A DNA stretch of 64,000 nucleotides. It comes from Thermoplasma acidophilum DSM 1728 (lineage in GTDB: Archaea; Thermoplasmatota; Thermoplasmata; Thermoplasmatales; Thermoplasmataceae). How positions within the stretch are numbered: position 1 is the stretch's first letter; each line of letters begins with the position of its first letter. Below are positions 2-39,822 of the stretch, piece by piece. The DNA lies in the NCBI RefSeq assembly GCF_000195915.1, contig NC_002578.1:310001-374000 (forward strand). The letters are read 5' to 3'. The translations under genes were made by a program, and so were the position numbers. Under the pieces are notes generated by a model. That model was not told where the DNA came from and did not search any database. It saw nothing but the letters and a program-made list of their open reading frames with translations.

Positions 2-1744
2 GTGAAAGATGCGGACCTGGTAATAGAGGCCGTTCCGGAAGTATTGGATATAAAGAAGAGTGTTTTCGACCAGCTGGACAAGAGCACAAAGGACAGCGCC
101 ATACTTGCCACAAACACATCCAACATCAGGCTCACAGAGATCGCGGAGGGAATAAAGAAAAAGGGCAAGGTTGTCGGCATGCACTTCTTCAACCCACCGG
201 TTGTGCTAAAGCTGGTTGAGGTCATAAGATCTCAGTACACTGAAGATGAAGTATTCGAAACGGTTTACGAATTCTCGAAGAGGATTGGAAAGACACCTAT
301 AAAGGTCTACAAGGACACCCCGGGTTTTGTGGTTAACAGGATAAACGCTCCGGAATCACTGTACTTTTGCCTGGTGATAGATAATAATCTGGCGAAGCCG
401 GAGGAGGTTGACAGATTCGCACGATCACAGGGACTGCCCATGGGACCGTACGAGCTTATGGACTACGTCGGCATAGATACCGTCTATCATTCTCTACAGT
501 ACTACGCAAAGGAGCTATCTCCAGATTATTCTAAGTGCCAAGTGTACACGAAGCTCTTCAATGAGAAGAAGCTTGGGCTGAAGACCGGCGAAGGTTTCTA
601 CAAATGGGTGAATGGTAAGGCGCAGATACCTGAGGCAAAGCCCACAAAGGCCGTGGAGCTTATGGACATCTTCGCTCTGGAGATAAACGAGGCGGTGAAG
701 ATAATAGAGGACGGTGTTGCCTCGCCCGATGATATAGAGACGGGTGTAAAGCTCGGAATGAACAGACCATTCGGCCCGATAACTGTGGCAAAGGGCTTAA
801 CCAATGCTGAGGTAAAGGCTAAGCTGGAGGCACTCTACCAGAAATTCAGCGTGGAGGTCTTCAAACCGGCGAAGTCCATAGCTGAGGGGAAGCTCAAGAC
901 GGTTATATCGATGCAGGTAGCGCTCTCCAAGGCCGAAGAGAAGAAGGAGGCAGCATCAGCATACATTTCATCCAGCGATCCAGTAATAATGGAGACGAAG
1001 GGCAGGATCGCCATACTTCGTATAAATAATACGAAGAATAATCTGATAAATGCAGCGGTAATGGATGGTCTCGAGAAGGCCCTTACGGATCTTTGGAACA
1101 ACCGTGAGATATCTGTTATCGTATTGACTGGAAATGGCCCGGTCTTCTCAGCTGGAGCACAGCTGGACTCGTTCTTCAGCAGCACCTTTGACTTCATGGA
1201 GTTCTCCAGGCGTGGAGAGCGTGTTTTTAAACTGCTAAGTGAGATACCGAAGGTTACAATAGCCGAGTTGAAGGGCTACACACTCGGCGGAGGATTCGAG
1301 ATGGCACTCGCCTGTGATATAAGGGTTGCCACCGAGGATGTGCAGATAGGGTTCCCAGAGGTTACACTTGGCCTTGTTCCCGGATGGGGTGGCACACAGA
1401 GGCTCTCACGTACAGCTGGACAGTCCAGAGCTGCTTACTATATACTCACAGGTGAGAGGTTCACAGGCAAAGAGGCTTATGAGATGGGCATCGTCGCGAA
1501 GATATTCAGCAAGGACACAATCGACTCGGAGACGCTGAACCTGGCTCAGAACATAGCTGATAAGGTTGCACCAATATCTGCTGCACTGGCTAAGAGGCTT
1601 GTTCTCAGGAGCACGAACACATCCCTGGATGATGGGCTGGAGATGGAAGCCATATCGATGGGCCTGCTCTACGGTACAGAGGATCTCAAGGAGGGCATCT
1701 CGGCATTCCTGGGTAAGAGAAAACCAAATTATCAGGGTAAATGA
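2..1744 (+). CDS. 3-hydroxyacyl-CoA dehydrogenase / enoyl-CoA hydratase fusion, 5' partial
   Basis: This bifunctional beta-oxidation enzyme hydrates enoyl-CoA and oxidises 3-hydroxyacyl-CoA with NAD. The reading frame is open at the window edge, so the NAD-binding glycine-rich strand lies upstream. The dehydrogenase part fills roughly residues 1-290 and keeps the catalytic HFFNPP segment and the helical C-terminal domain. The hydratase (crotonase) part fills about 325-580, with GGGFEMALACD and FPEVTLGLVPGWGGTQ carrying the two expected glutamates. Domain order is dehydrogenase then hydratase, the reverse of bacterial FadB but common in archaea. It converges on the acyl-CoA synthetase gene with no spacer at all. 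The family call is secure; chain-length preference cannot be read. Confidence 0.93.
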   Translation: MKDADLVIEAVPEVLDIKKSVFDQLDKSTKDSAILATNTSNIRLTEIAEGIKKKGKVVGMHFFNPPVVLKLVEVIRSQYTEDEVFETVYEFSKRIGKTPIKVYKDTPGFVVNRINAPESLYFCLVIDNNLAKPEEVDRFARSQGLPMGPYELMDYVGIDTVYHSLQYYAKELSPDYSKCQVYTKLFNEKKLGLKTGEGFYKWVNGKAQIPEAKPTKAVELMDIFALEINEAVKIIEDGVASPDDIETGVKLGMNRPFGPITVAKGLTNAEVKAKLEALYQKFSVEVFKPAKSIAEGKLKTVISMQVALSKAEEKKEAASAYISSSDPVIMETKGRIAILRINNTKNNLINAAVMDGLEKALTDLWNNREISVIVLTGNGPVFSAGAQLDSFFSSTFDFMEFSRRGERVFKLLSEIPKVTIAELKGYTLGGGFEMALACDIRVATEDVQIGFPEVTLGLVPGWGGTQRLSRTAGQSRAAYYILTGERFTGKEAYEMGIVAKIFSKDTIDSETLNLAQNIADKVAPISAALAKRLVLRSTNTSLDDGLEMEAISMGLLYGTEDLKEGISAFLGKRKPNYQGK

Positions 1745-3337
1745 TCATTTCTTGATCATTTCCCTCAGAACCTTTTTATCTATCTTTCCTGTGCTTGTTT
1801 TTGCGAATTCTTTTATATTTATGAAATCGTCCGGTATCCAGAACTTTGCTATCCTTCCGGCGTTTACCATCTCGATGAGATGCTTTCTTATCTCATCTGG
1901 CTTGGCCGTGCCGGTGTAGAACGCCACTGGCCTCTCTCCCCACTTTTCGTCAGGCCTTCCCACTACGGCGTTCTCGACAACGCCTGAGCATGAGCTTATG
2001 GCATCCTCAAGGACCAGCGATGGTATGAACTCTCCGCCCGATTTTACTGCATCCTTCTCCCTGTCAACGATGCGTATGTAGCCGTACTCATCCATCACCG
2101 CGAGATCACCGGTGTGCATCCAGTCGCCACGCCACAGAGCCTCTGTCCCTTCTTTGTTCTTCACGTAAACGCTGGTGAGCCATGGAGCCCGAACAACGAT
2201 CTCGCCTATAGTCTTCTCATCCTTGGGCACATCGTTCATCTTGTCATCTACGACCCTGAGCTGCACCAGGGGTATCGGAATCCCGGTTTTGAGCCTGAAT
2301 TTTTTCTTCTCGGATTCTGGCATCGCTTTTACCCTCTCGTTGTACGTCGCAAGCGTGAGTATCGGAGCGGTCTCAGACAATCCGTATCCCGATATGGCAG
2401 TTATTCCGAGCTTCTCAGCCGCGTTTGCTAAGCCTTCTGGCAGGGCTCCGCCTCCGACTATCGCCTTTATTCCGCGTCCTGCGATCTTCTTCACATTCGG
2501 ATTTGTAACTATGAGATACAGTATCGAAGGGACCATAGCTATTACGCTTACGTTGTATTTATCGATGAGATCGATTATGTGATCAAAGTCGTACCTGCCA
2601 GGAAGCACGTAGCGTCTACCTGACATTATGCTCATGTATGGTACACCCCAGGCATGCACATGGAACATCGGCACAAGCGGCATTATCACATCGCGAGACG
2701 TAAGGTTGATAGGATCGTCGGCGAGCGCCAGTCCGGATGATATGGAGTGCAGTACGATCTGCCTGTGCGTGAACTGCACCCCTTTTGGTATGCCTGTCGT
2801 TCCAGATGTATAGAACGTGGTTGCTAGATCGTTCTCTGACAGCTGGGGTAGTTCTATGTCAGAATAGGATTCCTTCATCAGATCATCGTACACATATTTT
2901 GGTGACAGGGAGTCCGGAATCTGCCCTGTCTCGGAGTAGACGATCCATCCCTTTATGAAGTAGAAAGCTTCTCTGTTCTTCGATAGTATCGGTACAAACT
3001 CATCCCTCACTATCACGTACTTATCCTCAGCATGATCCATTGTATAGTATATGAGATCCTGCGGGTAACGGACGTTCACTGTATGGAGAACTGCATCGAC
3101 CATTGGAACGGCGAAGTAGGCCTCTAGATATACGTAAGTGTCCCAGTCTATAACGGCAACTCTATCGCCCTTCTTTACGCCGATTGATATCAGAGCTTTG
3201 GCAAGTGTGTTCACCCTTTTGGAGAAATCTTTGAAGGTGAACTCCCTTTTGCCGGTGTAGTTTATTATCTGATCAGGGTTGGATGACACTCCACTCTGCA
3301 ACAGCTTATCTATGGTCAACTCATATTTGTATTCCAT
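1745..3337 (-). CDS. AMP-forming acyl-CoA synthetase (fatty-acid--CoA ligase family)
   Basis: This enzyme activates a carboxylic acid to its acyl-CoA through an acyl-adenylate. At 530 residues it has the full ANL-superfamily length. The phosphate-binding motif TSGTTGIPKG lies near residue 178, the YGLSETAP adenine motif near 318, and the C-terminal catalytic lysine in STGKID near 517. Its neighbours are beta-oxidation enzymes, so it probably feeds fatty acids into that pathway. A TATA-like AT-rich stretch on the minus strand around 3345-3360 puts the transcript start close to the ATG. Substrate length is unknown; medium- or long-chain acids are the best guess. Confidence 0.92.
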   Translation of the reverse strand: MEYKYELTIDKLLQSGVSSNPDQIINYTGKREFTFKDFSKRVNTLAKALISIGVKKGDRVAVIDWDTYVYLEAYFAVPMVDAVLHTVNVRYPQDLIYYTMDHAEDKYVIVRDEFVPILSKNREAFYFIKGWIVYSETGQIPDSLSPKYVYDDLMKESYSDIELPQLSENDLATTFYTSGTTGIPKGVQFTHRQIVLHSISSGLALADDPINLTSRDVIMPLVPMFHVHAWGVPYMSIMSGRRYVLPGRYDFDHIIDLIDKYNVSVIAMVPSILYLIVTNPNVKKIAGRGIKAIVGGGALPEGLANAAEKLGITAISGYGLSETAPILTLATYNERVKAMPESEKKKFRLKTGIPIPLVQLRVVDDKMNDVPKDEKTIGEIVVRAPWLTSVYVKNKEGTEALWRGDWMHTGDLAVMDEYGYIRIVDREKDAVKSGGEFIPSLVLEDAISSCSGVVENAVVGRPDEKWGERPVAFYTGTAKPDEIRKHLIEMVNAGRIAKFWIPDDFINIKEFAKTSTGKIDKKVLREMIKK

Positions 3338-4191: not shown

Positions 4192-5205
4192 TTAAATTAT
4201 TCCGCCCTTCTCACCCAGCACAGCCTGAGATATGACGCTGTTCTCCCAGGAATCTTCTCCGAAATACACAGCCATGGCCATGGCATCCCTGTAATACTTC
4301 TCTATCCCGAAGTCATGGATGTATCCATAACCGCCATGTATCTGCAGCGAACTCCTGCTGGCTGTCAGCGCTATCTCCCTTGCCTTGATCTTGCACAAAG
4401 CCTTTGCGTATTCACTCTGATTTCCATATAGGTAGAAGCGAATAAGATCTATCTCAGTCTTGGCACTCACTATCTCATCAAATATTGGCGTGTAGTCCTT
4501 CAGCGGGCGATCAAAGGCATTTCTCACTTTTGAATAGTCTGCGGCCTTTATCATTGTGCCATCCGCTATACCTAGAAATATTGCTGCTACCTCTCCGTCT
4601 GAGTTCTTCAGCTCCATCCTCAGTTTCTCCTCAGAACCGACCTTTTCGTATGTGGAGGAATCAAAATCAACATCCGAGAGATCCATGCCCCGCAGCCCGA
4701 GATGGCTTTTGCTTACGGCATGCATTCCCGAATCTATGGCATAGATACTGCTTCCATCGCTGGCAATGATGGAGGATGCCGTTCCGTTTATGACATTCGT
4801 GATCTTCCCTGTGAGCTTGCCGCCGGTGACCGTGAGCGCCGCAGATTTGCCTCTCAGATAGTATGGGGATAGATCAACTGTGACATCGATACTTCCGGAC
4901 AAGATGTTGGCCTTCTTATCGCTGTCAGGATTCAGCTTAAGATAGAGGTTCGTTAGAAATATCCACATTGAAACTGATGGTGAGGCCTTTGCTGTTTCCT
5001 CCAGAATTATCATGTATCCGTTCTCATCCAGCCCGGCGCCTCCCTTCTCTGCTGGAAGCGTTGCCCCTATGAAACCCTGCCCGGCGATCTTTTCCTTTAG
5101 CGAACGCTGAATTCCGTTGATCTCTATGTCCTTCGATACAGGTTCGATCTCCTTTGCAGCGAATTCTTTCACCGTATTTCTCAGTATTTCGTACTCCTCC
5201 ATCAT
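4192..5205 (-). CDS. Divergent acyl-CoA dehydrogenase-like protein, probably without its own active site
   Basis: This 337-residue protein has the acyl-CoA dehydrogenase fold but is shorter than the usual 370-390. The N-terminal helical domain is clear, and the C-terminal domain keeps SLQIHGGYGYIHDFGIEKYY (about 286-305). The mid-domain flavin/substrate loop (xxTEPGxGSD in relatives) is not recognisable, being replaced by VDLSPYYLRGK near 110-120. At the position of the catalytic glutamate of the C-terminal clade the sequence reads YFG (F315). Its gene overlaps the end of the upstream, fully motif-bearing dehydrogenase gene in an ATGATG, which implies translational coupling. A heteromeric partner role is inferred, not shown. 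Start could be either of the two ATGs at 5205 or 5202. Confidence 0.85.
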   Translation of the reverse strand: MMEEYEILRNTVKEFAAKEIEPVSKDIEINGIQRSLKEKIAGQGFIGATLPAEKGGAGLDENGYMIILEETAKASPSVSMWIFLTNLYLKLNPDSDKKANILSGSIDVTVDLSPYYLRGKSAALTVTGGKLTGKITNVINGTASSIIASDGSSIYAIDSGMHAVSKSHLGLRGMDLSDVDFDSSTYEKVGSEEKLRMELKNSDGEVAAIFLGIADGTMIKAADYSKVRNAFDRPLKDYTPIFDEIVSAKTEIDLIRFYLYGNQSEYAKALCKIKAREIALTASRSSLQIHGGYGYIHDFGIEKYYRDAMAMAVYFGEDSWENSVISQAVLGEKGGII

Positions 5206-6311
5206 TGGCTATCACCCACCTTCAACATCCTCGCGATGACAAGTTTTTCAATCTCGCTGGTACCTTCCCATATCTCCATGATCTTTGCGTCCCTGAACGA
5301 TCTTTCTATGTTGGACGAGAGGCCATCTATACCCGTTATCTCCATTGCCTTTCTTGATACGTAAACTGCAGTTTCAGCTGCGTATGCCTTTGCCATGCTG
5401 GTCACGGCTGGGTTTGGATTGAAGTTGAATATGAAGGACGCCGCCTCATAGGTCAGCAGCTTCGCAGCTTCTATGCGTGTCGCCATGTCAGCAATAGCGA
5501 ACTGGACACGTTCTGGCTGGGACGTTATCGGGCCATCTTTCTGGAGTATGCCAACGGCTCTTTCAAGGATGCCCTCCGCTATGCCTAGGGCCTGTGCCGC
5601 AACGTAGGCCCTGCTTATATCGAAGAAAGTCATTATGTAATAGAAGCCCCTGCCTGGCTCGCCGACTAAATTTTCAGCAGGTACCTTAACATTTTCAAGC
5701 GTCAGTTCTGCGGTGTCCGTTGCCCTTACGCCCAGCTTCCCATGTATCTTGTTAGATTTGAAACCATCGAAGTTCCTCTCCACTATGAATACGCTCATGC
5801 CCTGGTGTTTCTTCTTTTCCACGGATGTTCTTGCCAGAAGCACGAAGAAGTCTGCTATATCTCCGTTTGTTATGAACATCTTCGATCCGTTCAGTACGTA
5901 GTGATCCCCTTCCTTGACTGCTGTTGTCTTTATGTTTGCAACATCACTCCCACCACCTGGCTCCGTCACGGCAAGCCCCATCTTGGCTTGCCCTGAAAAA
6001 ACCTTGCTCAGATACTTCTTCTTCTGGTCATCGTTTCCGAAGAGGGCTATAACTTCGTTTCCAAAAAAAGGTACGAGCATTGATATGCCCATTCCAGCAT
6101 CGTATTTGCAGAACGTCTCCGTTGCAACAAGTATGTTCCAGGGATTCGAGTAATCGAAGACGCCCTCGCTGATCATCCTCCTTACGACCTCTTCAGGGTA
6201 TTTCTCCTGGAGATCGTACTTGGATGCAGCCTCTTCCGTGAATTCCCTCCGCGCAAACTCCTCTACCTTCTTCCTGAACTCCTTCTGAGCCTCATCAAAT
6301 TCGAAATTCAT
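5202..6311 (-). CDS. Acyl-CoA dehydrogenase
   Basis: This FAD enzyme oxidises acyl-CoA to trans-2-enoyl-CoA and passes electrons to an electron-transfer flavoprotein. At 369 residues it has normal length. It carries the flavin loop TEPGGGSD, the C-terminal IHG/ITG-type segment and the catalytic glutamate in IWEGTSEIE (about E349). The frame is open for 28 more codons upstream, but those overlap the thiolase end, so the ATG at 6311, two bases after the thiolase stop, is chosen. It belongs to a minus-strand operon: thiolase, this gene, divergent dehydrogenase. The likely electron acceptor is the fixAB-encoded flavoprotein at 38-40 kb. Confidence 0.92.
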   Translation of the reverse strand: MNFEFDEAQKEFRKKVEEFARREFTEEAASKYDLQEKYPEEVVRRMISEGVFDYSNPWNILVATETFCKYDAGMGISMLVPFFGNEVIALFGNDDQKKKYLSKVFSGQAKMGLAVTEPGGGSDVANIKTTAVKEGDHYVLNGSKMFITNGDIADFFVLLARTSVEKKKHQGMSVFIVERNFDGFKSNKIHGKLGVRATDTAELTLENVKVPAENLVGEPGRGFYYIMTFFDISRAYVAAQALGIAEGILERAVGILQKDGPITSQPERVQFAIADMATRIEAAKLLTYEAASFIFNFNPNPAVTSMAKAYAAETAVYVSRKAMEITGIDGLSSNIERSFRDAKIMEIWEGTSEIEKLVIARMLKVGDSQ

Positions 6312-6312
6312 A

Positions 6313-7503
6313 TCAATACCTCTCAAACACAACGGAATAGCCCTGGCCTCCTCCCACACAGAGCGTGGCCACACCGTAATCCTTCTTCTTCTCATTCATT
6401 ATGCGTGCAAGCGTACCAGCTATCCTTGCACCTGTGGCTCCAAGAGGATGGCCTATTGCAATGGCCCCGCCATGAACGTTGACACGATCCTCCTCAATGC
6501 CAAGCTCCTTCATGGCGTTGAGGACCACAACGGCGAAAGCTTCGTTTATCTCCCACAGGTCTATATCCGACACATCCATCTTTGCCTTCGCCAGTGCATT
6601 CTTCGTAGCAGGTACTGGGCCTTCACCCATTATTGAAGGATCGACGCCTGCCCAGCCAAAGGAAACGATGCGTGCCATTGGTTTCAATCCGTATTCCTTG
6701 ACCTTCTTCTCCGACATCAGAAGCGTAAGCGATGCACCAGCATTCAGTGGCGAGGAATTTCCCGCAGTGATTACGCCATCATCCTTGAACGCAGGTTTCA
6801 GCTTCTTCATGTCTTCCAGCGATGTGTTCTTCCTTATGCTCTGGTCAGTATCAATAACCTTTTCCTCGCCGTTTATCTCAACCTCAACTGGTACGATCTC
6901 TCCCTTGAAGTATCCATCGTCCAAAGCCTTTGAAGCAAGCTGATGGCTTCTCAGGGAGTATCTGTCCATTTCATCTCTAGTGATGCCTCTCAGTGCAGCC
7001 AGTTTTTCCGCCGTCAAACCCATGGAGTATCCCGTATTCATGTCCCAGTGCATGTATTCCGGTCTCACCATAAGCTTTATATTGGGCTTTAAGAATGGGC
7101 TGTTTCCCATTGGAACGTGCGTCATGTGTTCGTAGCCACCTGCCATAACTATATCGGAGTTGCCCGTCATTATCTCCATGGCACCGATGGTTATTGCGTT
7201 AAGAGAGGAAGAGCATGCCCTGTCAAGTGCCATTCCAGGGACGTTTTCTGGAAGATTTGCCAGGAGTATAGGGTGCCTTCCACCATAAGTCCAGTTCTCG
7301 TCCATCTGCAGGGCACAGCCTGTTATCACATCATTTATCTCCTCTGGCTTTATTCCTGTCTCATCTATAACGACGTTTATCAGCTTTGCCATGGCTTCAT
7401 CCATCCGGATAGAGTTGAACACGTCCCTCTCTGGATCGTTCGGCCTAGATCTGGAAAACGCCGTCCTTTTGAAGTCAACGAGATATACTTTTTCGCTGTT
7501 CAT
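6313..7503 (-). CDS. Acetyl-CoA C-acyltransferase (thiolase)
   Basis: This enzyme catalyses the last step of beta-oxidation, cleaving 3-ketoacyl-CoA with CoA. It has 396 residues, typical of the family. The nucleophilic cysteine lies in DRACSSSLNA (C97), the catalytic histidine in AIGHPLGATG, and the second cysteine in CVGGGQG near the C terminus. It leads a three-gene operon with two acyl-CoA dehydrogenase genes one base or less apart. A minus-strand TATA-like run (7534-7546) implies a short leader. Unlike the thiolase-like gene at 63.2 kb, all catalytic residues are present. A biosynthetic acetoacetyl-CoA role is possible, but the neighbours favour degradation. Confidence 0.93.
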   Translation of the reverse strand: MNSEKVYLVDFKRTAFSRSRPNDPERDVFNSIRMDEAMAKLINVVIDETGIKPEEINDVITGCALQMDENWTYGGRHPILLANLPENVPGMALDRACSSSLNAITIGAMEIMTGNSDIVMAGGYEHMTHVPMGNSPFLKPNIKLMVRPEYMHWDMNTGYSMGLTAEKLAALRGITRDEMDRYSLRSHQLASKALDDGYFKGEIVPVEVEINGEEKVIDTDQSIRKNTSLEDMKKLKPAFKDDGVITAGNSSPLNAGASLTLLMSEKKVKEYGLKPMARIVSFGWAGVDPSIMGEGPVPATKNALAKAKMDVSDIDLWEINEAFAVVVLNAMKELGIEEDRVNVHGGAIAIGHPLGATGARIAGTLARIMNEKKKDYGVATLCVGGGQGYSVVFERY

Positions 7504-9013: not shown

Positions 9014-11269
9014 ATGCAGTTGCTTGACGATATCCGAGGTTTTATGAATACATTCAGCGAAACTATGTTCATGGACGTTATAAATTATTCACTCACAAGG
9101 GACAGGTATGATTCTGTGTTTCTTCAAAGGCAAAATTATAGGGATCTTGGCCAGCTGAAAGAAATACTCACGAACGATGATGGGATAAAAATAAAATTCG
9201 ATGGCTATGATTTGAAGATACAGGGCACAGCAGATGGCACGATAAAATTCACGTGGACTGATGGTCCAGAAATTCCGGTAACTGACCCTGAGTTCGTAAA
9301 ACCACGATTGGATAATGGAGTATACGAATTTGGGGATTACAGACTGCTGATCGAAAAGGACGGTTTTTCAATAAGAGATGTTGAGGGAACGATACTGCAT
9401 CGTGAGTTCTTTCCATCATTCGGAGAAAACATAACACATGCATTCGAGCTGAATCAGGGAGATATAATAGCCGGCTTGGGAGAAAAGGCTGCACCCATCA
9501 ACATGATTGGGCATGTGTTCAGACTATGGAATCATGATGCAAACGGATCTTATGGGCCAGACAGCGATCCGCTCTATGTCAACGTGCCAATTATGCTTCA
9601 CGGTCATGCCGGTAGGTTTATCCTGATATTATACGTTAACGCTGGCGATGCTACAGTGGATGTTGGATATTCGGACGAACATAGGGTATCTTCATCTTTC
9701 AAATCGAAACCTCTTGCTTACTATGTAATCACAGGAAATCTTGACACTATATACGAGAAGCTTTCACTGATAACTGGAAAGCCACAAAAGCCTCCCTACT
9801 GGGCTTTCGAGTTTCAACAGTCAAGATACAGCTATATGGATACAAAGGAGGTGAGGGATCTGGTAGACGGATTTGCATCTAGAGGAATACCACTGGGTGC
9901 GGTTTATCTAGATATAGATTACATGGACAGATTCAAGATGTTCACGTTCGACCCTCAGAGATTCGGTGACGTTAAACAGCTCACAGAGTATATGGAACAG
10001 AAGGGGGTAAAGCTCATAACAATAATGGAACCAAGCATAAAAATGGAGCATGGTTTCGATCTCTATGAGGAAGGCCTGAAGGGCGGATATTTTGTCAAAT
10101 ATCCTGATGGAAACGTCATGTATGCACCGGTCTGGCCGGAGATGGCTGCTTTTCCCGATTTCACCGATGAGAAAGCGAGGGAGTGGTATGCCTCTAAATA
10201 CGATTTTATGCGATCCATGGGCGTCTCCGGATTCTGGCATGATATGAATGAACCGGCCATATTCGTGGGATGGGGCGATAACACCATGCCCAGATCCGCC
10301 GTGCATCGGATTGGCCGCCATGAGGAGGTGCACAACCTTTACGGATACTACATGGACAAGGCTGCCTACGATCATCTGTCCAAAGTTGAGAGGCCCTTCA
10401 TACTCTCACGATCAGGATGGGCTGGTATAAGCAGATACGGATGGATATGGACAGGGGATACGGAAACCTCGTGGAAGGAACTGAAGCAGAACATCATCAC
10501 AATAATGCACATGTCAATGTCGGGAATAACGCTGACAGGATGTGATATAGGCGGTTTCACCGGTTCTCCAACACCTGAACTTTTCATAAGGTGGCTGCAG
10601 GCGTCACTGTTTTTCCCTCTCTACAGGGTTCATTCAGATAAGAAATCAAAGAGGAGGGAGCCATGGGCCTTTGGGAGTCATGAAAAGGAGATAATAGAGA
10701 TAATAAGGTTGAGGCATTCCTTTGTGCCACACATTTACAGCGAAGCGATATCATCATCCATAACGGGTCTTCCACTTGTAAGGCCTGTCTTCTGGGCAGA
10801 TCCAAGTAGGAACGATCTAATGTCCGTGGATGATGAATATACGTTCGGTGGCAGCATCCTGATTGCGCCAATAGTGGAGGAACACGCCGTCATCAGGAGG
10901 ATAATACTTCCATCTGGCCGCTGGTACAATATCAGTGATGACAGGATTGTTGAAGGAAGCCTCAGCATAAACGTTGATCTTTCGACAGTTCCGATATTCG
11001 TCAGAGAAGGATCGGCGATACTCAGGGAGAATGATGGCATTGAACTGCATTTATATCTTGCTAATGAAAGGAGAAAAAGCATACTGTACATCAGTGACGG
11101 AAATGATGACATAAAGGTTGAGGTTGAATTCGACAGTAAAAGCGTTGATATCAATCCTCAGAAAGTGCCGAAAATAAAGGCCATCGTGATGCACGGTTTC
11201 AGGGAAGATGAATTGATCCTCAATGGAGAACCGATAAAAACAAGCGATGGCATAATAAGGTTGAAGTGA
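9014..11269 (+). CDS. aglA: GH31 alpha-glucosidase
   Basis: This 751-residue glycoside hydrolase family 31 enzyme releases glucose from the ends of malto-oligosaccharides. It has the N-terminal beta-sandwich, the (beta/alpha)8 barrel and a C-terminal beta domain. The nucleophile lies in FWHDMNEPAIF near residue 410, and the acid/base aspartate in WTGDTETSW near 480. There is no signal peptide, so a cytoplasmic enzyme is expected, working on sugars released by the amylolytic genes at 49-56 kb. It is monocistronic, with its own TATA box. The symbol follows the known T. acidophilum alpha-glucosidase. Activity on other alpha-glycosides cannot be excluded. Confidence 0.92.
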   Translation: MQLLDDIRGFMNTFSETMFMDVINYSLTRDRYDSVFLQRQNYRDLGQLKEILTNDDGIKIKFDGYDLKIQGTADGTIKFTWTDGPEIPVTDPEFVKPRLDNGVYEFGDYRLLIEKDGFSIRDVEGTILHREFFPSFGENITHAFELNQGDIIAGLGEKAAPINMIGHVFRLWNHDANGSYGPDSDPLYVNVPIMLHGHAGRFILILYVNAGDATVDVGYSDEHRVSSSFKSKPLAYYVITGNLDTIYEKLSLITGKPQKPPYWAFEFQQSRYSYMDTKEVRDLVDGFASRGIPLGAVYLDIDYMDRFKMFTFDPQRFGDVKQLTEYMEQKGVKLITIMEPSIKMEHGFDLYEEGLKGGYFVKYPDGNVMYAPVWPEMAAFPDFTDEKAREWYASKYDFMRSMGVSGFWHDMNEPAIFVGWGDNTMPRSAVHRIGRHEEVHNLYGYYMDKAAYDHLSKVERPFILSRSGWAGISRYGWIWTGDTETSWKELKQNIITIMHMSMSGITLTGCDIGGFTGSPTPELFIRWLQASLFFPLYRVHSDKKSKRREPWAFGSHEKEIIEIIRLRHSFVPHIYSEAISSSITGLPLVRPVFWADPSRNDLMSVDDEYTFGGSILIAPIVEEHAVIRRIILPSGRWYNISDDRIVEGSLSINVDLSTVPIFVREGSAILRENDGIELHLYLANERRKSILYISDGNDDIKVEVEFDSKSVDINPQKVPKIKAIVMHGFREDELILNGEPIKTSDGIIRLK

Positions 11270-37975: not shown

Positions 37976-38770
37976 ATGCTGAACATAGTTGTTATGATAA
38001 AGCAGGTTCCTGACAGCAGCGAGGTTGAGATCGATCCGGTCAAGATGACGCTAAACAGGACAAAGGCGAGAAACGTAGTAAATGCTGCAGATCTAAATGC
38101 ACTTGAATATGCGCTGAGGATAAAGGACAAGGTTGGAGCAAACATAACCGTCATATCCATGGGCCCGCCGATGGCCGATGCCGCAATAATTGAGTGCATG
38201 GCCCGTGGAGCAGACAGGGGCATTCTAATCACGGATAGGGCCTTCGCCGGAGCTGATACGTATCCTACGGGCCTCACTCTGGCTGCAACCATAACCAAGC
38301 TGGGGAACGTCGATATAGTCTTTGGCGGGGATGAGACAACCGATTCCAGCACGGGCCATGTCGGTCCTGGTGTTGCAGAATTCCTCGGGTTCGATCAGAT
38401 AACGTATGCGAAGGAAGTGGACTACGAAGACGGTTACGTTATAGCTACGAGAGATCTCGAAGATGGGGATGAGATAGTCAAGGTGCCAACGCCGGTTGTC
38501 ATAACGGTTCTCCTGAACTCGAACATCCCGAGGCACCAGAGCCTCAGGAAAAAGATCGATGCTATCAGAAAGGGTGTGGAATCATGGGGTATAAATGAGC
38601 TCGGTCTCAAGCCTGAATGGGTCGGTCTGCGCGGTTCTCCAACAATAGTCAGGTCGATGAAGGCTATCAAGGAACCGGAGCACCTGCACAAGACCGTAAC
38701 ACTTGACAAGATCGATGATATCGTTGCGGATCTTGTTTCAAAGAACATAATAAAGGTAGGTGGTAAGTGA
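37976..38770 (+). CDS. fixA: Electron-transfer flavoprotein beta subunit (FixA)
   Basis: This 264-residue subunit of the electron-transfer flavoprotein begins IVVMIKQVPDSSEVEID and carries AADLNALEYALRIKD and GGDETTDSSTGHVGP. The last segment lies where flavin-bifurcating EtfB proteins bind a second FAD. It accepts electrons from acyl-CoA dehydrogenase with the FixB subunit. It overlaps fixB by four bases in an ATGA-type junction. Membership in the FixABCX type makes electron bifurcation possible, but that is not proved by the sequence. Confidence 0.92.
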   Translation: MLNIVVMIKQVPDSSEVEIDPVKMTLNRTKARNVVNAADLNALEYALRIKDKVGANITVISMGPPMADAAIIECMARGADRGILITDRAFAGADTYPTGLTLAATITKLGNVDIVFGGDETTDSSTGHVGPGVAEFLGFDQITYAKEVDYEDGYVIATRDLEDGDEIVKVPTPVVITVLLNSNIPRHQSLRKKIDAIRKGVESWGINELGLKPEWVGLRGSPTIVRSMKAIKEPEHLHKTVTLDKIDDIVADLVSKNIIKVGGK

Positions 38771-39822
38771 TGGTTGGCCTCATAAACGCAATTCCGGTTG
38801 CAAACAAGGACGAATACAAGAACGTCGGCGTGTACATCGAGCACAGGGGCGATGAAATAAAGAGATCATCCCTGGAGATGATCGGCATCGGCAAACAGCT
38901 GGCACGCAAGATAAACGAAAAGCTGCTGTGCGTAGTCATAGGAGATAAAGTGGACGGAATAGCGAAGGAAGTCGGTGAATATGGATGTGATATCGTACTT
39001 GCCGCGGAGTCTCCGGATCTGGCAGAATACAGGACGATGCCGTATGCACAAATAATAGGCGATTACATCGCAGAATACAAGCCGAACATATTCTTGCTCG
39101 CTGCGACCAGGAACGGTAGGGATCTTGCATCCAGAATAGCAGTCAAGGAAAGGACAGGAATAACAGCGGACTGCACGGTGTTGGATGTGGACGAGAACAG
39201 GACGTTGCTGGCGAACAGGCCAACGTACGGTGAAAGCACGCTTGCAGAGATACTGTGCAGAAACCACAGGCCGCAGATGGCCACAGCCAGGCCAGGCACT
39301 TTTACGCCAGCCGAGAAGGAAAAAGACCACAAATACGAGATCGTGAAGAAGAAGGTAAACGTTGACAAGAACATGCTGAAAAAGCAGATAATCAAGTTCA
39401 TTCCAAAGAAAGCAACGGACCTTACAGCCGCAAAGATCGTCGTGGCAGGCGGCCTCGGGCTTGGCGGTCCTGATGGATTCAAGTTGCTGCAGGATCTGGC
39501 GGATCTGATAGGCGGTGCAGTTGGATCGTCCAGGCCTCCGGTGGATCTGGGCTGGATAACCAGGGATCACCAGGTTGGGCAGACCGGCCAGGCGGTCAGG
39601 CCTGATCTGTACGTAGCAGTGGGAATATCTGGAAAACCGCAGCACGTAGCAGGCATGAAGTTTTCAAAGGTGATCATCAGCATAAACAAGGACCCCAACG
39701 CAGAGATAAACAAGATATCTGATTATATAATAGTAGAAGATTACAGAAAGGCCGTTCCTGCGCTGATAGATGCAATAAAGAACTTTGGAAAGCAGAAGGT
39801 GGCTGAGGCTCAGAAGGCCTGA
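38767..39822 (+). CDS. fixB: Electron-transfer flavoprotein alpha subunit (FixB)
   Basis: This 351-residue subunit binds FAD through its C-terminal domain: GGLGLGGPDGF, SSRPPVDLGW, QVGQTGQAVRPDLY and ISGKPQHVAGM. The N-terminal domain (about 1-205) pairs with FixA. It ends the fix operon and its last 13 bases overlap the 3' end of the converging thrS gene. The partner acyl-CoA dehydrogenases are encoded at 4.2-6.3 kb, in a separate transcript. Confidence 0.93.
   Translation: MMVGLINAIPVANKDEYKNVGVYIEHRGDEIKRSSLEMIGIGKQLARKINEKLLCVVIGDKVDGIAKEVGEYGCDIVLAAESPDLAEYRTMPYAQIIGDYIAEYKPNIFLLAATRNGRDLASRIAVKERTGITADCTVLDVDENRTLLANRPTYGESTLAEILCRNHRPQMATARPGTFTPAEKEKDHKYEIVKKKVNVDKNMLKKQIIKFIPKKATDLTAAKIVVAGGLGLGGPDGFKLLQDLADLIGGAVGSSRPPVDLGWITRDHQVGQTGQAVRPDLYVAVGISGKPQHVAGMKFSKVIISINKDPNAEINKISDYIIVEDYRKAVPALIDAIKNFGKQKVAEAQKA

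Follow-up and report, generated by a model that had tools for sequence, protein, structure and literature searches.

Reciprocal loss of flavin half-sites predicts a two-chain acyl-CoA dehydrogenase in Thermoplasma acidophilum

Two adjacent genes of Thermoplasma acidophilum, here termed A and B, very probably encode obligate subunits of one acyl-CoA dehydrogenase (ACAD), most likely an A2B2 assembly in which each A–B dimer shares an FAD site. The genes lie in a window of 64,000 nucleotides, the whole stretch of DNA analysed here, from a genome that forms a single contig of 1,564,906 bp (Table 1). A would bind the isoalloxazine of FAD together with the acyl-CoA and would supply the catalytic base, E349. 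B would have no active site of its own but would contribute, in trans, an arm (R228, F231 and Q288-HGGYGY) to hold the ADP end of the FAD in A, and there would be one active site per A–B dimer, not two. A–B would catalyse the initial oxidation in the general β-oxidation of fatty acyl-CoA, acting alongside the neighbouring thiolase and hydroxyacyl-CoA dehydrogenase/hydratase. An earlier note on this DNA had proposed a heteromer resembling those encoded by actinobacterial gene pairs; the linkage of A and B, their reciprocal loss of half-sites and the same partition at IpdE2-type loci support this proposal, and from these we infer the complex itself.

The gene pair and its divided flavin site

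The two genes are coupled on the minus strand, as the earlier note described, and overlap by 4 nt, the TGA stop of A lying inside an ATGATG that contains the first ATG of B. Pfam matches the N-terminal, middle and C-terminal ACAD domains on A, which is thereby a member of the ACAD superfamily. On B the N- and C-terminal domains are matched and the middle domain is not, and it belongs to the superfamily by these domains and by its fold. The reported absence of a flavin loop from B is correct, and B has no flavin motif; the predicted fold, which matches whole ACADs (TMq ~0.84), retains a shrunken β domain. F315 does indeed occupy the alignment column of the catalytic Glu, and among the residues listed for B of relatives there is no Glu at either the MCAD or the IVD/LCAD column. 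A is a near-canonical ACAD, with AcrC as its best NCBIfam match (297 bits) and MmgC (5lnx, 227 bits) as its best match in the PDB, where CarC (6fah), Bcd (5ol2) and MCAD are also among the closest. The claim that A carries all the family motifs stands for TEPGGGSD and for WEGTSE with E349, but not for R-x-x-F, QxxGGxGY and the 10-residue P-x-E-Y-G-G loop, all of which are missing.

Table 1. Positions of the genes and motifs discussed, numbered from the first letter of the window
Feature	Position	Strand	Evidence or conservation
A, catalytic (α-like) ACAD chain, 369 aa	5202..6311	-	Pfam PF02771/PF02770/PF00441; AF2 pLDDT 92.8
B, non-catalytic (β-like) ACAD chain, 337 aa	4192..5205	-	Pfam N- and C-terminal domains only; AF2 fold
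A, TEPGGGSD flavin motif, residues 116–123	5943..5966	-	In A, T and GSD 100%, E 98%; lost in B
A, E349, catalytic Glu in WEGTSE, MCAD position	5265..5267	-	E in 79/79 A, 0/79 B
A, site of lost R-x-x-F motif, residues 255–262, ILQKDGPI	5526..5549	-	R and F absent from all A
A, degenerate QxxGGxGY motif, residues 324–331, EITGIDGL	5319..5342	-	Alignment with canonical ACADs and census
A, site of 10-residue deletion after P57 (P-x-E-Y-G-G loop)	6135..6143	-	Deleted in 79/79 A
B, PAEKGGAGLD loop retained, residues 51–60	5026..5055	-	GG 84/92% in B
B, R228-x-x-F231 retained	4513..4524	-	98% in B
B, Q288-I-HGGYGY295 retained	4321..4344	-	94–98% in B except Q 82%, N 16%
B, F315 at catalytic-Glu position, in AVYFGED	4261..4263	-	Column F54 L18 M11 G5 in B, never E
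Thiolase (acetyl-CoA C-acyltransferase), directly upstream of A	6313..7503	-	Thiolase–A–B order in relatives
3-Hydroxyacyl-CoA dehydrogenase/enoyl-CoA hydratase fusion	2..1744	+	Extends past window start
ETF β and α genes, probable electron acceptor	38045..39357	+	PF01012, two adjacent matches; presumed use by A–B

Alignment of both chains with canonical ACADs reveals that A is degenerate too, at places opposite to those in B. In MCAD-type structures, each FAD spans the dimer interface, with the isoalloxazine in one chain and the ADP part held by the C-terminal domain of the neighbour. From known ACAD structures we take R-x-x-F and QxxGGxGY to be the residues of the half-site for the ADP end, a role in FAD contact that the actinobacterial parallel described below would also assign to them. 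In the alignment of relatives, the 79 A, the 79 B and a further 89 ACADs were scored for a triad of flavin motif, catalytic Glu and ADP half-site. The first two are present and the third absent in 79 of 79 A; 77 of 79 B show the reverse, and 84 of the 89 other ACADs have all three. One of the two exceptions in B is the N-terminal fragment of a split gene, with the C-terminal columns missing, and in the other the letters at the flavin columns match by chance. Taken singly, the catalytic Glu is found in 100% of A, 0% of B and 96% of other ACADs; R-x-x-F is found in no A and in 98% of B, its Arg and Phe being present in 97% and 96% of the others. QxxGGxGY is lost in A, largely 94–98% conserved in B (the first position excepted) and 88–100% conserved elsewhere. 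At the IVD/LCAD Glu position every A has Ser or Thr, and the 10-residue loop that all A have lost is present in nearly all other ACADs.

Since the motif states recur in every one of the 79 A and in practically every B of relatives, chance or a local oddity is ruled out. Each chain has lost parts of the flavin site that the other has kept, so that A and B should work only as a pair. This reciprocal loss argues for a heteromer far more strongly than does the missing Glu of B by itself.

It seems quite improbable, in comparison, that A acts alone as a homo-oligomer and just shares its operon with B, an ACAD-like protein of separate function, such as regulation, acyl-CoA binding or scaffolding. 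Such an A would have its catalytic Glu, its flavin motif and a confidently predicted monomer fold (pLDDT 92.8), conservation of every flavin contact is not required, and in one genome there is an additional A that adjoins no B. However, the ADP half-site that is missing throughout A is kept in 97% of other ACADs, and exactly that half-site, R-x-x-F with HGGYGY, is the most invariant feature of B; this match between loss in one chain and conservation in the other would be unexpected if B did not complete A. B is under strong purifying selection, with dN/dS of ~0.05 in the sole unsaturated comparison, dS being saturated or nearly so in the others. It is retained by each of the three families of the order that carry ACADs, and its AF2 monomer has a pLDDT of 92.8 and a pTM of 0.93, the alignments for both monomers being drawn from the window proteins and proteins of related loci only. 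The selection and conservation data, with the invariant motifs, largely refute the idea that B is a decaying pseudogene or a relic of tandem duplication, which we find hardly credible even though B diverges faster than A (31–40% versus 51–63% identity), has a degenerate flavin domain and is split in one species.

Linkage and distribution of A and B

The co-conservation on which the earlier proposal hung is borne out, B being neither absent nor unlinked in relatives. With one duplicate A as the exception, A and B are adjacent at all sampled Thermoplasmata loci long enough to show it, and in the 74 pairs measured they are contiguous and co-oriented with gaps of −17 to +13 nt. The order thiolase–A–B is found at 62 of 62 loci with room, and in deeper lineages a hydroxyacyl-CoA dehydrogenase/hydratase precedes it in the same direction. 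An order-wide search located A and B together, side by side, in families f1, f2 and f5. Families f3, f4 and f6 had no ACAD detectable with these queries, and genomes without A and B were also without every ACAD that the queries can detect. At least three further A–B pairs lie outside the order; they come from two more families of its class and from a Euryarchaeota MAG. A model of B that gives 260–445 bits on intact Thermoplasmata B genes found, at a threshold of E 1e-55, no B ortholog among 247 genomes from the phylum to which a Haladaptatus belongs or among 148 from that of a Lokiarchaeote. Full β-oxidation gene sets, with proteins detected, have been described for Thermoplasmatales of acid mine drainage (PMC3750248).

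Some loci depart from this pattern. Genome G100 has a second A-type chain (L180:5382-6515, minus strand), ~50% identical and without the ADP half-site, that adjoins no B, so that strict one-to-one pairing is not universal; this chain may share the other B of its genome. A comparable second A in genome G099 has its own B (L062/L181). The B of genome G101 (1,584,804 bp) is interrupted in the non-conserved β-domain remnant, giving two open frames that overlap (L039:5750-6760); either the gene is truly split there or the sequence has an error. In genome G037, one A lies within a 749-aa open frame, but this is not a natural A–B fusion, the B frame there being separate and 343 aa long. The source genome has another ACAD of 364 aa (G000:C1:1513465-1513836; L006:838-1932, plus strand) with none of the three motif sets, and no adjoining ACAD was seen within its 1.5-kb flanks.

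Comparison with known enzymes and the docking of ETF

In the solved actinobacterial A2B2 enzymes, the α chain binds the isoalloxazine and the substrate and carries the Glu, and the β chain binds ADP-ribose (PMC11153573); the heteromer is essential and contains two FAD (PMC8399759). IpdE2-type loci were taken from actinobacterial genomes, four being over the curated cut-off, and their ACADs were aligned. In the IpdE2-type chains R-x-x-F is kept, as is Q-x-HGG or Q-x-HGA, whereas the Glu and the flavin motif are missing; the α chains beside them, identified as such from adjacency and motifs, show SEP-x-x-GSD but no ADP half-site. The motif partition at these loci is the same as that in A and B, which, as far as their sequences tell, are of the functional kind in which α keeps the flavin site and β the ADP-ribose half-site. 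B is not itself an IpdE2 (NF050027), scoring 33 bits against a curated cut-off of 450 bits, and a search for IpdE2 in the genomes of nine loci gave nothing over the cut-off.

The steroid A2B2 ACADs (ChsE4-ChsE5, ChsE1-ChsE2, IpdE1-IpdE2, Tcur3481-Tcur3483 and Scd1AB) resemble A–B in being encoded by adjacent genes with the Glu in one chain only (PMC8399759, PMC11153573) and in having an α chain that keeps the flavin motif and loses R-x-x-F and QxxGGxGY and a β chain that does the reverse. They differ in that the Glu of A is at the MCAD position, whereas that of the steroid α chains is at the IVD/LCAD position; in that the 10-residue deletion occurs in archaeal A only and YRD follows HGGYGY in archaeal B; and in that A–B belongs to an archaeal operon of general β-oxidation, not to a steroid cluster. 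CasC of Rhodococcus jostii also has the Glu in one domain and needs the other for FAD binding (PMC8399759), but it is a single fused polypeptide of two ACAD domains and acts in a bile-acid pathway. The homotetramers of MCAD, SCAD and Bcd type are closest to A in sequence and have the catalytic Glu at the same place, but they bear both half-sites on every chain, whereas in A–B these are split over two chains. A literature search, with subscription papers mostly outside its reach, turned up no description of an archaeal heteromeric ACAD.

The ETF anchor is received in MCAD by a pocket of F52, G89, L90, T93, L102, L104 and I112, in precursor numbering (PMC11153573). In A the loop with the L102 and L104 positions is deleted, and Ala, Thr or Gly stands at I112; in B the loop is kept, with hydrophobic residues at L104 (Leu or Ile) and I112 (Ile, Val, Leu or Met). 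In Clostridioides EtfAB/Bcd, one Bcd contributes its GGYGYTRDY loop to a second ETF contact and its partner contributes the β domain, although two sentences of the source disagree on which Bcd is which (PMC5691135); B keeps a loop of this type, including its D (95%) and F (90%). As both the pocket and the second-contact loop are kept on B, which would probably present the docking site that A has lost, ETF would dock mainly on B and receive its electrons from the flavin of A. The acidic ETF contact E212 of MCAD is Glu in 19% of A versus 88% of other ACADs, and through this loss the geometry of ETF may differ from the standard one.

Origin and recurrence of the split site

A and B are each monophyletic in the trees (support 100/100 and 100/99, respectively). 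A tree with the two as sisters is not rejected (p-AU 0.65), yet they lie apart in other trees. The archaeal pair might share its ancestry with the actinobacterial steroid-type A2B2 ACADs, having moved between domains, which would be compatible with the proposed mechanism; we consider this rather unlikely. The β chains of actinobacteria join B in some trees (SH-aLRT 94), as the α chains join A (79), neither decisively, and a joint clade of A and α is not rejected (p-AU 0.5). These joins, however, involve long branches, and when more canonical rows are included A groups with a canonical ACAD encoded in the same genome (SH-aLRT 92). The difference in Glu position (PMC11153573) also speaks against shared ancestry, as do the scores of A, 226 bits with homotetrameric ACADs but 118 with ChsE4 and 113 with Tcur3483. 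On the Glu position and the closeness of A to the homotetrameric enzymes, but with a shared clade unrejected, we regard an independent origin of the archaeal pair as likely rather than proven.

Neighbouring ACADs with the same reciprocal loss are present in Myxococcota (L166:8294-9469 and 10063-11142, both plus strand; also L227-L232, L234-L237, L239 and L240). The α chain there has SEPSAGSD and YEGTSE without R-x-x-F or GGxGY, the β chain is the reverse, the Glu is of MCAD type and there is no loop deletion. These α and β chains branch within different canonical groups, a tree joining α with A is rejected (p 0.023), and the pair is apparently of independent origin; with the same losses found in it, reciprocal half-site loss appears to recur. 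A further Myxococcota ACAD (L243:1468-2730, minus strand), sister to the β chains, has a damaged flavin motif with EGT present and looks intermediate. In Zixibacteriota, an ACAD without the ADP half-site adjoins a complete one (L162:8-1117 and 1123-2265, plus strand), possibly a pair of this kind in the making. We judge it evenly balanced whether the split flavin site had at least three independent origins (steroid A2B2, Thermoplasmata A–B and Myxococcota) and was taken further in the archaea, with the ETF-docking pocket deleted from the catalytic chain and left only on the non-catalytic one, and chemistry and electron hand-off consequently on different subunits.

To our knowledge, the literature presents two-chain acyl-CoA dehydrogenases as peculiar to the breakdown of steroids by bacteria. 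A–B would be an archaeal variant of this known kind of enzyme, its heteromer being strongly predicted. Such pairs can be sought by sequence with the simple rule of reciprocal half-site loss, which has already turned up the Myxococcota pair. If the prediction is true, it explains a gene filed at present as merely another acyl-CoA dehydrogenase, and the A–B conserved in the thiolase operon of Thermoplasmata would be the likely main β-oxidation dehydrogenase for one group of archaea.
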